40,243 nucleotides of DNA from Desulfotignum sp. (GTDB taxonomy: Bacteria; Desulfobacterota; Desulfobacteria; Desulfobacterales; Desulfobacteraceae), in the NCBI GenBank assembly GCA_011389575.1, contig JAABUB010000024.1, positions 1 to 40,243 on the forward strand, in the 5' to 3' direction. Under the pieces are notes generated by a model. The model made no database searches. It was not told the DNA's origin and worked only from the letters and a program-made list of their open reading frames with translations. A program made the position numbers and the translations under genes. Of this stretch, positions 4,677 through 9,520 are shown piece after piece; position 1 is the first letter of the stretch; each line of letters opens with the position of its first letter.

Positions 4677-5252
4677 TCAATAATTTTCACACAGCCGTTC
4701 AAACCAGCCGGAGGGCCGGACACAGGCCGGGCATTTGTCAGGAACGGTTTTTCCGGTATGGATATACCCGCAGCCCAGACAGCGCCACCGGATCTGCATC
4801 TCATCTTGAAAAATCCGGTGGGAAGCGATATTTTCCGCCAGGTGCCGGAACAGTTTTTCATGATGATTTTCCGCCACAATAATGGCATCAAAAGTATCTG
4901 CGGCCCGGGCAAACCCTTCCTGCCTGGCAACCTGTGCAAATCCGGCATACATGTCATTGCCCACATAGGCTTCCAGATCTGCGGAAGACAGCAGATTTGC
5001 ATGGGTGTCTTCAATCACCCCGGTGGGAAAGTGCCAGTTTATGGTCAGGTTTCCGCCATTGAAAAATTTGAAAAACCGCAGCGCATGTTCAAATTCCTGG
5101 TCAGCGGTTTCATCAAACAATTTGCCGATCTGGATATATCCTTGGTTTCTGGCCTTATCGGCAAAAAAATTATACCGGGTCCTGGCCTGGGCCTCTGCTG
5201 CAAAGGAGGTATGCAGGTTCACAGCGGTTCTACTTTCCCGGAATTTTCCCAT
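4677..5252 (-). CDS. rbr: rubrerythrin
   Basis: Non-haem diiron peroxidase that removes H2O2 in anaerobes, fed electrons through rubredoxin-type centres. Residues 1-150 form the four-helix ferritin-like domain with FAAEAQARTRYNFFADKA, ETADQEFEHALRFF and a later AENHHEKLF, which supply the Glu/His diiron ligands. Residues 155-191 are the C-terminal rubredoxin-like domain with WRCLGCGY and PDKCPACVRP. About 191 residues, normal length. I prefer the ATG at 5252 over the GTG at 5258 because AAAAGG lies 7 bases before it. Last gene of the stress operon, with a strong terminator after it. Confidence 0.9.
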   Translation of the reverse strand: MGKFRESRTAVNLHTSFAAEAQARTRYNFFADKARNQGYIQIGKLFDETADQEFEHALRFFKFFNGGNLTINWHFPTGVIEDTHANLLSSADLEAYVGNDMYAGFAQVARQEGFARAADTFDAIIVAENHHEKLFRHLAENIASHRIFQDEMQIRWRCLGCGYIHTGKTVPDKCPACVRPSGWFERLCENY

Positions 5253-5288
5253 GTCCACACCTTTTCTGGTTATCTTTTGTTCTGGTAT

Positions 5289-5480
5289 TTATTCTTCAAT
5301 GATGATGGCATCGGCACCGCACTCGGCAGCTGCCTGACGCACCTTGTCCTGGAGATGGTCCGGAATGGGATCAACCTGGATGGTGGATACAAGCTGGTCC
5401 TCATCATACTTGAATACTTCAGGACAAAGCTCGTTGCAGTTTCTGTCACCCATGCACTGATCGGTAATGGTCACTCTCAT
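5289..5480 (-). CDS. single-cluster ferredoxin of the C-x2-D-x2-C type
   Basis: A 63-residue acidic electron carrier. Ligands are Cys9, Cys15, Cys19-Pro and Cys54; the place of the second cysteine is taken by Asp12 (CMGDRNC), as in Pyrococcus furiosus ferredoxin. This predicts a [4Fe-4S] cluster with Asp ligation that can lose one iron to become [3Fe-4S]. The remaining C-terminal helix region has no second cluster. An excellent AGGAGG stands 6 bases ahead of the ATG. Located between the FAD oxidoreductase and rubrerythrin, so it may carry electrons between them (inference). Confidence 0.88.
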   Translation of the reverse strand: MRVTITDQCMGDRNCNELCPEVFKYDEDQLVSTIQVDPIPDHLQDKVRQAAAECGADAIIIEE

Positions 5481-5577: not shown

Positions 5578-6711
5578 TTATCCTGCTTTTTCAATGGCCT
5601 GAAATTTTTTCATAAATTTTGTATCAATATAATGCTTAATTGTAAAGGCAAGCCTGCCGTTAAATACGATGTTTTTTTTCTTGAGAACCCCCTTACCGCC
5701 GCCGAGATTGAACACCAGCAGATAGTCTGATCCCGGGTCAAACGGCATCAGTTCTCCGCCTTCCAGGGCAGCCATGAGGTTATGGAGCAAGACCGGGTTC
5801 TGCCGCACTGCATAGACCCCTACTTTGTCCAGCGGCTGATCTTGAAAATAAATGCAGTCACCGCCTCCGAAAATTTTCGGATCTGCCACACTCTGCAGAT
5901 ACTTGTTCACCAGCAGCCCCTTGTCCGGCCCAACAGGCAGGTTGGATTTTTCAAAAATTTCTGAGGGTGTCACCCCTGCTGCCATAAAGGTAAAATCCGT
6001 GTCATACTGTTTTTTGGAATCAAGGGTGATATACGTTCGGGTCACCTTTTGTACCCGTGCATTTTCCAGAATCCGGATCTTTCTTTTTTCCAGAACCGCT
6101 TTTACCCGGTCCCGGATTTTATCAGAAAACCTTCCCATGAAACGGTTTGCACAAAAAATGCGAATTTCCGGCATATGTGTCCCGGTTTTTTTTGCCAGCT
6201 GCCACACATTGCCCGCCACCTCAGCAGAAGACGGCCCGCCCCCCACCACACTGACCCGGGCTTGGCTTTCAGCAAACAGTGCCTGCAGTTTTTCTGAAGC
6301 CTCCATCAATTTTTCAATGGGCTTGACAGGATACACATTGTCCGGTTTTTCTTCCTCTACCGTGCCCACACCGGTCATAGGCACATGGGATCCGGCATTG
6401 CAGGAAACCACATCATAGGAAACCGTGTTCCCGGACAGGGTAAAGACGTTTCTGGTTTCAGGGTCAATATGGGTTACGCGGTCCTTGACAAATCGGCCGC
6501 CCTGGCTTTCCACCACATCCCGGGTGGCAAACCGGATCTGTTCAGGCAGATAGGTTTTTCCCAGCATGCCCGGCCCCATTCCCGAATAATAATGGTATAT
6601 GGACGGGCCGATGACCGTAACGTTGTATCCTTTTTTTACAAATTCTTTGATATTTTCCAGTGTGACCATGTGTGCATGGCCGCCACCCACCAGTACCAGG
6701 TGTTTTTTCAT
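5578..6711 (-). CDS. FAD/NAD(P)-dependent oxidoreductase resembling the SelD-fused (TIGR03169) family
   Basis: A 377-residue two-Rossmann flavoprotein. The N-terminal FAD motif LVLVGGGHAHM is followed by YHYYSGMGPGMLGKTY, the NAD motif VSVVGGGPSSAEVAGN lies near residue 155, and IFGGGDCIYF near residue 300 closes the FAD site. The GGGHAH start and the YSGM-PG motif are typical of the NADH dehydrogenase-like domain fused to selenophosphate synthetase SelD in many bacteria; here it stands alone. The redox cysteine pair of sulfide:quinone reductase is not evident. GGAG is 9 bases ahead of the ATG. Possibly the NAD(P)H input of this operon. Confidence 0.75.
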   Translation of the reverse strand: MKKHLVLVGGGHAHMVTLENIKEFVKKGYNVTVIGPSIYHYYSGMGPGMLGKTYLPEQIRFATRDVVESQGGRFVKDRVTHIDPETRNVFTLSGNTVSYDVVSCNAGSHVPMTGVGTVEEEKPDNVYPVKPIEKLMEASEKLQALFAESQARVSVVGGGPSSAEVAGNVWQLAKKTGTHMPEIRIFCANRFMGRFSDKIRDRVKAVLEKRKIRILENARVQKVTRTYITLDSKKQYDTDFTFMAAGVTPSEIFEKSNLPVGPDKGLLVNKYLQSVADPKIFGGGDCIYFQDQPLDKVGVYAVRQNPVLLHNLMAALEGGELMPFDPGSDYLLVFNLGGGKGVLKKKNIVFNGRLAFTIKHYIDTKFMKKFQAIEKAG

Positions 6712-6751: not shown

Positions 6752-7582
6752 TCACAGGGTATCCATCAATTTTCCCAACCGTTCCAGATGCTGTTTTTCC
6801 TCATCTGCGATACCATGAACAATGGCTGCGGAATCGGCGTTTTTCATGCGTGCCCCCACCCGCTGATACAGGTCCAGGGCCTGGGCTTCAATGGACATGG
6901 CCAGAGATATCACCTCGGTTTCCACAGACAGATCCGGGTCAAACAGTTCCAGGTACTGGTCGGTGGTCAATCCCCCTTCCCCGGCTGAAGTCTCCACCAT
7001 GGCATCAAACTGTTCCCGTGACACAGCAGCATCAGCCATCCGGGCATAGGCATCAAAAATCGCATCCTGGTGTTTGACCTCAATGGCAGCCAGTTTCTCA
7101 AACAGTTCCAGCACCGCTCTGGTCCGGGCCTTGTCAGCCATATCCAGATAGAACCGGTGCAACCCCTGTTCCAGTGAATAGGCCACCTTGAGAAAGTCCT
7201 GCGGGGATTTACTGCCGTCAAACAGGTCCATGCCGAGTGTCTGGGGCCCCACAGCAGTCTTGCCCTCCCAGGCCTTGATGCCGCCTGATACATTATACAC
7301 CTGTGTGAAACCTTTGCCTGACAGCATCTGGGCAGCCACCCGGCTGCGCCCGCCGACCGCTCAGTAAACCAGGGTGGGTTTGCCCGGATCCAGTTCAGAC
7401 ATCCGGTCTGAAAGTTGCGGCAAAGGTATGAGCACAGCCCCGGGGATGTGGCTTGCCTGATACTCGGAGGGCTGGCGCACATCCAGTATGGTGATATCCT
7501 CAGGCGAATGGTCTGATATCATCTTCCGGGTTTCGTTGTAATCTTTGGATTGTACCGGAGTCAAAAACTGCATCCATTTCAT
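6752..7582 (-). CDS. predicted selenocysteine rhodanese fused to a ferritin-like (rubrerythrin-type) domain
   Basis: Read through an in-frame TGA at 7361-7363, this is one gene of 276 residues. Residues 1-105 are a rhodanese: ITILDVRQPSEYQASHIPGA, then PTLVY-U-AVGGRSRVAAQ, then VYNVSGGIKAWEG. The UGA (residue 74) falls exactly at the catalytic cysteine, so selenocysteine is the simplest reading. Residues 125-276 are a four-helix ferritin-like domain with diiron-type motifs (SLEQGLHRFY, AAIEVKHQD, SIEAQALDLY, ADEEKQHLE). The frame resumes with intact homology directly after the UGA, and a SECIS-like hairpin follows at 9 bases. The ATG overlaps the nitroreductase stop (ATGA). A sulfurtransferase or selenopersulfide peroxidase-like role is possible but unproven. 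Without selenocysteine insertion it would be two broken pieces (7364-7582 and a headless rest). Confidence 0.85.
7330..7351 (-). promoter_or_regulatory. candidate bacterial SECIS element
   Basis: In the mRNA a hairpin starts 9 bases after the UGA: eight base pairs with one bulged C, closed by a GGGU tetraloop. The apical G-G-U falls 21-23 bases after the UGA, close to its place in E. coli fdhF, where SelB recognises a GGU in the loop and a bulged base. It lies wholly inside the coding region, as bacterial SECIS elements do. Confidence 0.68.
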
Positions 7583-9087
7583 GGCATAGTTCCTTTCTTT
7601 TTCACAGGACCTGCCGCCACAGCGTAGAGCAGGACACTGCCGGTTTTCAAGGCCAGAAGTTCTGCTGCTTCTGTGTCATACATGGCACCGACACCACAGC
7701 ACCCCAGATCGAACGCTTCTGCTGCAAGGTAAATACGCTGGCCTGCCCTGCCCGCATGCATCATAACATGCCTGTATCCCCGGGATCCCAATGCCGATTC
7801 CACCGCACCAAGATCCGCCAGAAACAAAAAATTCACAGAAGCCCGGCTGATCCAGGCCTGATCCAGGCAGACCCGGGCCAGCGCATTTGCCAGGCTGCCT
7901 GAGTGCATGCACTCCAATTGGGACCCATTCGGAGATAAGGTGTACAATCCGTCTGCCAGACCTTCCAGGTTCTGACAGATCATTGCCGGCACAAGAAAGT
8001 TTTTTGCTGCTGCACCTGTCTCTTCAGGGATATGGTCGGAGAAAATGCCTGAAAAAATCTGCCTGAAAAAGGCCGCCCACACAGCACCGGGCAGTTCATG
8101 TTTACTAAAATTGCGGCGGGACCGCCTGTTTGTAACTGCATTGCGAAAAGATACCTCAGGACAAAAATCAGATGCCGGCAGGGGTATAATCTCTGAAGGG
8201 CGGTGCTGAAAAACCCGGGGGATTTCATCCGGCACCCGGGATTGCACAACAAAGGACCCTGTCTTGAACGCTTTTTCCAATATCTCATACCGGACAGGGG
8301 CAAATGGTTCCGGCACCGGTCTGACAGGCTGAGACGGTTGTGTATCAGCCCCATCTTCCCGGACATTACCTGAACCCAGAAAAAGGCAAGCCAGAGGAAC
8401 TTCGCAGGAAACATCCAGATCCAGGCCCTTTAGCAGCTGCTGGTCATCAAAATCATACCCTGCCCCGGCACCAATGTCTTCTGCCCTGGCTGCAAGCATC
8501 ACTGATTCAGCCAGATGGCCGGCATCTAAGAGCAGATACCTGAAGGCCCTTTCTCTGTATTTCCAGGCAGAATGATAAAAAACACCTGTGATAACCAGGT
8601 ATGCCCCGGCAGGGGTCGGGGCCGGCAGTATTTTTTTCATGTCCAGGGGCCGGGTGTTGATTTTGCCCAGCAGGCCCTGAACCGTATCACAATAATACAA
8701 CCCTGTCTCAATATCAGGAATATCCGTAACCGAAAGGTACAACTGGCAGGGGTAAAGACCGCCGGCTGAAGGCACGCTGCGAAACAAAATTCCCCGGGAT
8801 CTGTCCGCAAGGGTTACCCCGTAGCACAGGGACAAAATTCTGCAGATCTTTTTGAAATCCACCCGGCTGATATCTGACGGTTCCCGGTCCAGGGCATCAC
8901 AAACAGACAGTTCAGAACCAGCCATATCCCGGACCATCTGTGTCTCATTCAGAAATTCATAACGCTTGAAAGGCTGCGGATATCTGCTGAAATCCAGAGA
9001 ATGGGGAGAAATCCGGTGGCGCACATGGCAGGTTCGGGCATGGTATCGGGTTGCAGAAACAAGCTGGTCTGTGTCAGAATTGTCCAT
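7579..9087 (-). CDS. tandem nitroreductase-fold protein, SagB/ThcOx type
   Basis: About 502 residues containing two nitroreductase-like halves. The start ATRYHARTCHVRHR...YPQPFKRY is the usual opening of SagB-type dehydrogenase-family proteins. The first half contains RSVPSAGGLYPCQLYL and a DAGHLAESVMLAA segment; the second repeats the plan with RSRRNFSK and HAGRAGQRIYLAAEAFDLG. The family binds FMN. No cyclodehydratase or precursor-peptide gene is nearby, so peptide-azoline oxidation is unlikely and a redox role in this operon is more plausible. Start set at ATG 9087, after AGGGG; an ATG at 9111 would add 8 residues but has no ribosome-binding site. Stop overlaps the next start by 4 bases. 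Confidence 0.75.
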   Translation of the reverse strand: MDNSDTDQLVSATRYHARTCHVRHRISPHSLDFSRYPQPFKRYEFLNETQMVRDMAGSELSVCDALDREPSDISRVDFKKICRILSLCYGVTLADRSRGILFRSVPSAGGLYPCQLYLSVTDIPDIETGLYYCDTVQGLLGKINTRPLDMKKILPAPTPAGAYLVITGVFYHSAWKYRERAFRYLLLDAGHLAESVMLAARAEDIGAGAGYDFDDQQLLKGLDLDVSCEVPLACLFLGSGNVREDGADTQPSQPVRPVPEPFAPVRYEILEKAFKTGSFVVQSRVPDEIPRVFQHRPSEIIPLPASDFCPEVSFRNAVTNRRSRRNFSKHELPGAVWAAFFRQIFSGIFSDHIPEETGAAAKNFLVPAMICQNLEGLADGLYTLSPNGSQLECMHSGSLANALARVCLDQAWISRASVNFLFLADLGAVESALGSRGYRHVMMHAGRAGQRIYLAAEAFDLGCCGVGAMYDTEAAELLALKTGSVLLYAVAAGPVKKKGTMP

Positions 9088-9125
9088 CCGGATCTTTACC
9101 CCTCTGTGCATAATTTTGAAAAAAC

Positions 9126-9153: not shown

Positions 9154-9339
9154 TTAATTTTTGTGAGAATGGTCATCTTCCTGAACATCGGCTTCCATGG
9201 TCGTCATGCATTCATGGCATTCCATCTCAATGTTGGGCACATCACCATATCTTTTTTTGAGTTCTTCTTCAGACAGATGGGTGGTACCGCTGCATCCGCA
9301 CTGGGGGCAGGATGTTTTTATCCGGTATTTTTTGCTCAT
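9154..9339 (-). CDS. small zinc-ribbon protein
   Basis: A 61-residue protein with Cys11-x2-Cys14 (SCPQCGCSG) and Cys41-x2-Cys44 (MECHECMTT), the layout of a zinc ribbon or rubredoxin-like knuckle pair; the tail DVQEDDHSHKN is His/Asp-rich. I do not recognise a family. Start chosen at ATG 9339, 6 bases after AAAGGAG; the open frame extends further upstream across the neighbouring gene but that part is not credible. It follows the rubredoxin-like gene by 16 bases and is probably co-transcribed with it. Confidence 0.72.
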   Translation of the reverse strand: MSKKYRIKTSCPQCGCSGTTHLSEEELKKRYGDVPNIEMECHECMTTMEADVQEDDHSHKN

Positions 9340-9355
9340 CTTGTACTCCTTTGCA

Positions 9356-9520
9356 TCAGTCATTTCCTGTGATTCGTGGATCAGATGGTTTTCCTGCACA
9401 ATCGGGCGTATAGCAGGAATTGTCCACAAAAGAACACTCTTTTTTGCAGCTCGGGCATTTTTCCGGCGGGGTATCCGCCTCAAAAGTATATCCGCATTGG
9501 TCACAAATCCAGCTGGTCAT
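9356..9520 (-). CDS. rubredoxin-like protein
   Basis: A 54-residue protein with two CxxC knuckles, Cys6-x2-Cys9 (WICDQCGYTFEA) and Cys22-x2-Cys25 (PPEKCPSCKKEC), as in the small rubredoxin-like domains that end rubrerythrins. Three more cysteines follow (Cys29, Cys36, Cys41), which ordinary rubredoxins lack. It probably binds one iron or zinc and acts as electron carrier to peroxidases such as the rubrerythrin at the end of this run. Start at ATG 9520 because AAAGGAGG lies 5 bases ahead. First gene of the minus-strand stress cluster. Confidence 0.82.
   Translation of the reverse strand: MTSWICDQCGYTFEADTPPEKCPSCKKECSFVDNSCYTPDCAGKPSDPRITGND

Follow-up and report, generated by a model that had tools for sequence, protein, structure and literature searches.

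In rhodaneses, sulfane sulfur is borne on the catalytic residue, and in rubrerythrins peroxide is reduced at a diiron site. Rhodanese domains fused to a redox enzyme, as in the protein described here, are known from the persulfide dioxygenase-rhodanese fusion 5ve3, from CoADR-RHD (3ict) and from the NADH-dependent persulfide reductase 3nt6. We take their second domains to be metallo-beta-lactamase-type dioxygenases or flavin disulfide reductases and all three to use cysteine, unlike the protein described here. Rubrerythrin, nigerythrin and ferriperoxin have no rhodanese or selenocysteine (Sec) domain. Ferriperoxin is a rubredoxin-less relative of rubrerythrin, whose peroxidase activity depends on an NADPH-dependent reductase (PMC3317640). 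In the [FeFe] hydrogenase-rubrerythrin chimera CperHydR, H2-dependent H2O2 reduction at the diiron site was reported from experiment (PMC11926857); as in the protein described here, a rubrerythrin-type diiron site is fused to another electron-donating domain, but the donor is a hydrogenase with Fe-S clusters instead of a Sec rhodanese.

Sec-containing rhodaneses had been predicted before, as the preliminary description of our locus noted: a 2026 review distinguishes forms 1-5, of which forms 2 and 4 have a UxxG motif (PMC13188914), and earlier predicted entries appear in PMC9312934, PMC2398784 and PMC1088965. The review also gives the motifs CxU and UxxxxU for the rhodanese selenoproteins NF041203 and NF045694 (PMC13188914). 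The words ferritin and rubrerythrin do not occur in the main texts of PMC13188914, PMC9312934, PMC1794560, PMC2398784, PMC5029168 and PMC8318568, and the titles and abstract openings of open-licence papers describe no fusion of a rhodanese with a rubrerythrin or ferritin-like domain, in agreement with the earlier impression that such a fusion is little described. Judged by its predicted domains, the novelty of our protein would thus lie in the diiron fusion, which is undescribed in the open papers searched, and not in the Sec rhodanese, a known kind of predicted selenoprotein. Members of the family may already be listed in supplementary tables, namely Table S3 of the Desulfobacterium autotrophicum paper, which reports 31 Sec proteins, and Supplementary Table 6 of PMC8318568. 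The latter paper lists a Sec protein with a 'rhodanese-like domain' from a Desulfobacula-like genome, which is possibly the orthologue that we found at locus L031. The bin of L031 is named CORE_19_RING_Bin_00001, and PMC8318568 describes a Core 19 mat sample.

The gene lies on the minus strand at positions 6752-7582 of the window (the whole 40,243-nt stretch of Desulfotignum sp. DNA that was analysed). Read from 7582 to 6752, it forms one frame of 276 residues, terminated by a TGA stop (6752-6754), and the TGA at 7361-7363, corresponding to residue 74, is its sole internal stop; the two adjacent frames are therefore joined through this single codon without any indel, as had been proposed. With the TGA read as U, Pfam places a rhodanese domain at residues 18-107 (7262-7531; PF00581, E 7.5e-22), which is also recovered by fold matches, and a rubrerythrin-like diiron domain at residues 129-273 (6764-7198; PF02915, E 7.5e-15), so that the ferritin-like domain suspected on the same chain is indeed there. 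The sequence Tyr-U-Ala-Val-Gly-Gly-Arg-Ser corresponds to the catalytic loop of rhodaneses, with U replacing Cys, and in a profile alignment the solved rhodanese 6mxv has a Cys in the column matching the TGA, which places the UGA at the catalytic cysteine, where the preliminary description had put it. Under the standard code the gene is read as two separate ORFs, and no NCBIfam model (June 2026) matched the read-through protein at its cut-off; such a gene is easily missed. NF041203 (rhodanese_LYCAU) scored 40.4 bits (cut-off 115) and NF045694 (TsoB, a rhodanese/DsbD-like selenoprotein) 21.2 bits (cut-off 805): both are rhodanese selenoproteins like the window protein, but it falls far below their cut-offs, and their names contain no diiron domain. 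Forms 2 and 4 of the review, compared here by description, share with the window protein the rhodanese fold and UxxG (in our case U-A-V-G), but the descriptions mention neither ferritin nor rubrerythrin (PMC13188914). No PDB entry spanning both domains appeared among the profile and Foldseek matches, in lists that are dominated by one domain each and are no proof of absence.

Open stretches joined by a TGA are common by chance: we counted 23 of the same kind in the 40-kb window, requiring at least 60 codons before the TGA and at least 100 after it. The proof was therefore sought in relatives. In named genomes a pattern scan recovered 34 loci, most of them from Desulfotignum, Desulfobacula, Desulfospira, Desulforhopalus and other Desulfobacterales-type genomes; 27 of them were aligned with the window (alignment A1). 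Searching 389 genomes of the order revealed at least 150 places, and among the matches listed 90 had one in-frame TGA and 60 had none. Site 74 was read in 110 of these at least 150 places: it was TGA where one TGA was listed and Cys where none was. Some match was found in 361 of the 389 genomes, many of the matches being far weaker and likely rhodanese-only. In total, 144 loci (with the window counted twice, further duplicates and a pair of matches confined to the rhodanese) had TGA (101), TGC (29) or TGT (14) at site 74. A profile search of 395 genomes from the phylum yielded 98 genomes that matched with E no higher than 1e-40, and the 45 loci read from this search had TGA (19), TGC (20) or TGT (6). 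TAA, TAG or a residue other than Cys was not found at site 74 in either set, and the orthologues with U or C at this position that the preliminary description had called for thus exist in number. Among the carriers are L039, from the cultured Desulfospira joergensenii DSM 10085, and L081, a natural Cys form. Elsewhere in the 45 phylum loci we noted a TAG at position 243 of L191 (a Cys gene), a TAA at position 4 of L193 and stops beyond position 265, near the gene end, in L192, L196, L200 and L202. Outside the phylum, the pattern scan of named genomes, which finds close relatives, returned two matches (L046 and L047), both of the rhodanese part only.

Of the 144 loci, 117 remained as unique full-length genes, 77 with TGA and 40 with Cys at site 74. 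Those set aside were L040, whose start is missing from its contig, the frameshifted L044, L045, which is cut by a contig end, the rhodanese-only L046 and L047, and 22 identical genes; L048, in which only the ferritin half matched, was excluded from site-74 scoring. In all 117 genes U or C at position 74 is accompanied by G77, R79 and S80, that is, by the complete CxxGxRS loop of rhodaneses. The occurrence of the same gene in many relatives, with either Sec or Cys at this site, speaks for a real selenium enzyme and not for a broken gene. From these comparisons it is nearly certain that the gene encodes a selenoprotein in which a Sec rhodanese is fused to a rubrerythrin-like diiron domain.

In the second domain the expected diiron ligands E138, E168, H171, E232, E262 and H265 are invariant in all 117 unique full-length genes, and the PF02915 match, the fold match and this ligand conservation together assign the domain to the rubrerythrin/ferritin-like proteins, with a predicted four-helix fold and carboxylate and histidine ligands. 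The C-terminal rubredoxin-like Fe(Cys)4 domain of canonical rubrerythrin is absent from the window protein according to Pfam, and a direct comparison of the ferritin half with the window's own rubrerythrin by hhalign gave only a weak match (probability 7%). The window protein has no cysteine besides site 74, and the same is true of 94 of the 117 proteins, which together with the missing rubredoxin domain means that these have no internal resolving cysteine. Residue 202 (6977-6979) is an extra Glu within an E-G-G motif between the two helix pairs that is invariant in 117 of 117 proteins; it may serve as an additional ligand or as a gate.

The coding sequence is under purifying selection on both sides of the UGA, as estimated from same-genus comparisons: dN/dS was 0.11-0.24 before the UGA and 0.14-0.29 after it in five of six comparisons, the sixth being skipped because of a length difference. 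A check for selA, selB, selC and selD, suggested with the original observation, found all four in the draft genome (83% complete), where the three protein genes and tRNA-Sec (76.9 bits) are over their cut-offs. Since SelD (G000:C105:9046-9969) contains one in-frame TGA, the selenophosphate synthetase of this genome is probably a selenoprotein itself. Among the other carriers, tRNA-Sec was detected in 31 of 40 genomes with the Sec form and 36 of 38 with the Cys form, with G278 counted as Sec and G319 as Cys, though both hold both forms. A second search of the eleven misses yielded a tRNA match barely above the cut-off (about 50 bits) in three genomes and SelB over its cut-off in eight; the three tRNA matches are doubtful, because the laxer setting also flagged two previously negative control genomes. 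Nine of the misses were Sec-form genomes; among them, neither tRNA-Sec nor SelB passed the cut-off in G278 and G075, and G266 yielded a weak tRNA match only. These three genomes are incomplete drafts (81-89%).

Downstream of the UGA, at 7332-7347 on the minus strand (16 to 31 nt after its first base), lies a putative bacterial SECIS hairpin core with a 6-bp stem and a GGGU loop. Its assignment is based on synonymous codons specific to the Sec genes, the strongest evidence, and on the stem. At Ala 83 the codon is GCT in 52 of 57 non-redundant Sec genes versus 7 of 35 Cys genes (Fisher p 2.8e-12, kinship not corrected for). The T of this codon forms a pair with the A of the codon for Ser 80, and the pair is present in 71/77 Sec and 9/40 Cys genes of the unique full-length set. 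Hairpins that fit a general stem rule (6 bp or more in the stem, 3-7 nt in the loop and a G at one of the first two loop bases) occur in 55 of 77 Sec versus 6 of 40 Cys genes, where synonymous recoding predicts means of 2.4 and 1.2, respectively. In the added phylum set, from which L161 and L163 were excluded as their genomes were already in the first set, the corresponding numbers were 17/17 Sec versus 3/26 Cys genes, with predicted means of 0.6 and 0.8; the value of 17/17 is not a blind result, because the general stem rule was set after shifted stems had been noticed in six of these Sec genes. The pair that had been fixed beforehand was present in the other eleven of the 17 Sec genes and in 3/26 Cys genes (Fisher p 0.0006). 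When the hairpin pair was examined on the tree by a strict test of independent pairs, significance was not reached (median p 0.22), and 5 of 94 Sec genes (L116, L122, L129, L135 and L136) fail a 5-bp stem rule. Compared with synonymous recoding, the fixed helix reached z 23.0 in Sec and z 8.6 in Cys genes; since the Cys genes, too, exceed recoding, the coding sequence common to both forms accounts for some of the pairing. Energy alone does not reveal the SECIS: mean MFE differed little between Sec (-16.8) and Cys genes (-15.7), and the fold energy of the window stretch alone was not unusual (z -0.93). Rfam gave no match in the window at the gathering threshold, and at E up to 10 the 131 bases around the UGA gave four chance-level matches, none of them SECIS.

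To follow the exchange of Sec and Cys, we left site 74 out of a quick tree and mapped both forms on it. The label requires at least 15 changes, or at least 8 if only well-supported branches are considered, while shuffled labels require about 34, with none of the 500 shuffles reaching a value as low as that observed. As read from this tree, Sec and Cys have been exchanged repeatedly, in one direction or the other. Most of the Cys-form genomes tested keep tRNA-Sec, so the change between Sec and Cys is not simply the result of lost selenium use.

The best-conserved neighbour of the gene encodes a FAD/NAD(P)H oxidoreductase (5578-6711, minus strand), which was recognized by its family match and in the window starts 40 nt after the Sec gene. 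Of the 117 loci, 84 have it on the strand of the gene itself (60 Sec, 24 Cys). When loci with enough flanking sequence are considered, it accompanies 59 of the 72 Sec genes and 25 of the 39 Cys genes. In 79 of the 83 loci with a near-full-length copy it is located downstream, no more than 60 nt from the stop in 68 of these 79, and in four (L135, L136, L155 and L157) upstream. Among the 45 phylum loci, most of them stretches shorter than 4 kb, it was found near 13. Of the solved structures, NDH-2-type NADH dehydrogenases are closest to it in sequence. Sulfide:quinone oxidoreductases have at least two conserved catalytic cysteines. In the oxidoreductase C286 (GGGDC motif) is the sole invariant Cys among 84 sequences, and since it thus lacks the cysteine set of sulfide:quinone oxidoreductases, we rejected this assignment.

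The next commonest neighbour is a SagB-type dehydrogenase (7579-9111, minus strand; TIGR03605, 150.9 bits, cut-off 78.4), which adjoins the gene in 21 of the 117 loci, exclusively Sec ones, that belong mostly to the genus of the window and near relatives. In the window its stop reaches 4 nt into the start of the Sec gene. Beyond the FAD oxidoreductase, in the same direction, follow a small ferredoxin (5289-5480, minus strand; PF13370) and a rubrerythrin (4677-5258, minus strand; NF045767, 219.8 bits, cut-off 200). Neither is widely conserved: in loci with enough flank, the ferredoxin is present at 7/44 Sec and 0/37 Cys genes and the rubrerythrin at 6/40 and 1/36, respectively. A small protein without a Pfam or NCBIfam match is encoded upstream (9154-9504, minus strand) and recurs on the same strand in 9/40 Sec and 0/38 Cys loci with enough flank.

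How might the two domains work together? SelB and tRNA-Sec almost certainly decode UGA 74, helped by the putative hairpin 16 nt downstream. A small-molecule persulfide or a peroxide would supply the selenol with sulfane sulfur or with an oxidising equivalent, giving Sec-S-SH or Sec-OH as the intermediate. The diiron site would then reduce peroxide, or low oxygen, with electrons or persulfide from the Sec domain, and the FAD oxidoreductase encoded next to it would restore the reduced state. Such an enzyme could protect sulfate reducers near oxygen and clear reactive sulfane sulfur. We favour this coupling of peroxide or oxygen reduction to a Sec persulfide or selenol because in Foldseek the best rhodanese matches of the N-terminal half include the persulfide enzymes 5ve3, 3ict and 3nt6, and because CperHydR and ferriperoxin provide two precedents. 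The invariant diiron ligands, the lack of an internal resolving cysteine in most members and the frequent FAD oxidoreductase also speak for it. The persulfide chemistry coupled to peroxide that the preliminary description had suggested is compatible with these observations; the hairpin, the repeated changes between Sec and Cys and the strong conservation of the oxidoreductase go beyond that description. Weighed against the mechanism are that part of the family lacks the oxidoreductase in the sequence examined, and that its likeness to a SelD-fused domain also fits selenium delivery. Taken as a whole, identity and mechanism together, the assignment as a Sec rhodanese-diiron persulfide/peroxide enzyme has in our estimate somewhat less than an even chance of being right. 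The more specific version, in which Sec-S-SH on the rhodanese is the direct electron or sulfur donor to the peroxide- or oxygen-reducing diiron site and the FAD reductase serves as a back-up, is a more tentative proposal that we consider rather doubtful in its details.

The same Foldseek matches can be read in another way. The presence of the persulfide dioxygenase-rhodanese fusion 5ve3 among the top ones, along with reports of Rho-PDO fusions in Desulfobulbales (PMC13047784), would be consistent with persulfide oxidation or plain sulfurtransfer, the diiron site oxidising the Sec persulfide with oxygen to sulfite without any peroxidase role, which would make the protein a diiron analogue of those fusions. 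We regard this as unlikely, though it is a main rival of the favoured mechanism: the second domain is rubrerythrin-like and does not have the metallo-beta-lactamase fold of the persulfide dioxygenase-rhodanese fusions, and a reductase partner would better suit a reductive cycle, as in the favoured peroxide-reducing mechanism.

The oxidoreductase itself raises the question of selenium delivery, as its best family is TIGR03169 (Nterm_to_SelD, the oxidoreductase domain at the N-terminus of Ndh-SelD fusions), which it matches over the whole model with 252.4 bits. Ndh-SelD fusions have been described (PMC2398784), and rhodanese-bound perselenide as a selenium donor is cited in PMC10298544; accordingly, the rhodanese could carry a perselenide and, with the oxidoreductase, pass reduced selenium to SelD. 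The score, though, is below the curated cut-off of 310, and the protein is not fused to SelD; by its sequence it is a relative of TIGR03169 and not a curated member. In addition, selD was not found among the frequent neighbours (28 largest clusters, judged by eye), and delivery would leave the fully conserved diiron site unexplained. We therefore consider this function, the other main rival, improbable. Still less probable, to the point of being very unlikely, is the supply of iron and sulfur for Fe-S assembly, with the rhodanese giving sulfur and the ferritin-like domain giving or buffering iron: nifS and nifU are indeed encoded at 77-1817 in the window, but about 5 kb from the Sec gene, and the link does not recur, a NifU match being found at L038 only of the 117 loci, many of which are stretches too short to show one, and no NifS/NifU cluster being seen among the 28 largest neighbour clusters read by eye. 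Finally, a pseudogene, an error in the sequencing or a UGA read through as an ordinary amino acid is hardly credible: the 23 chance TGA junctions in the window and the incomplete draft (83%) would allow for it, but the TGA at the same site in 77 unique full-length genes and otherwise Cys, dN/dS of about 0.1-0.3 on both sides of the UGA, the Sec machinery in the genome and the Sec-specific hairpin all contradict it.

The protein joins three redox chemistries, those of a selenol, of sulfane sulfur and of a diiron site, on one chain, in a family that recurs among sulfate reducers around the genus of the window. Since 94 of 117 members have no second cysteine, the selenium chemistry would be clean to study, and the at least 8 to 15 changes between Sec and Cys, with tRNA-Sec kept in 36 of 38 Cys-form genomes, make the family a good system for asking what is gained by selenium over sulfur. 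If Sec-S-SH is indeed the donor to the diiron site, sulfur metabolism would drive protection from oxygen, and the repeated swaps of Sec and Cys in cells that mostly keep the Sec machinery would constitute a natural experiment.

Two further observations concern single genomes. G278 (C575, C519) and G319 (C80, C224) each have one TGA copy and one stop-free copy of the gene, so that Sec and Cys forms may coexist in a single organism, as far as the draft bins are clean. G189 has, on a contig other than that of the main SelB, a second SelB (295.9 bits) that is preceded at 29 nt by a weak tRNA-Sec match of 50.6 bits (G189:C148:23176-25192), and G070, G013 and G127 have a second tRNA-Sec match of 54.7-57.6 bits beside one at about 75 bits. 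These matches may represent a second, divergent pair for Sec-type decoding.
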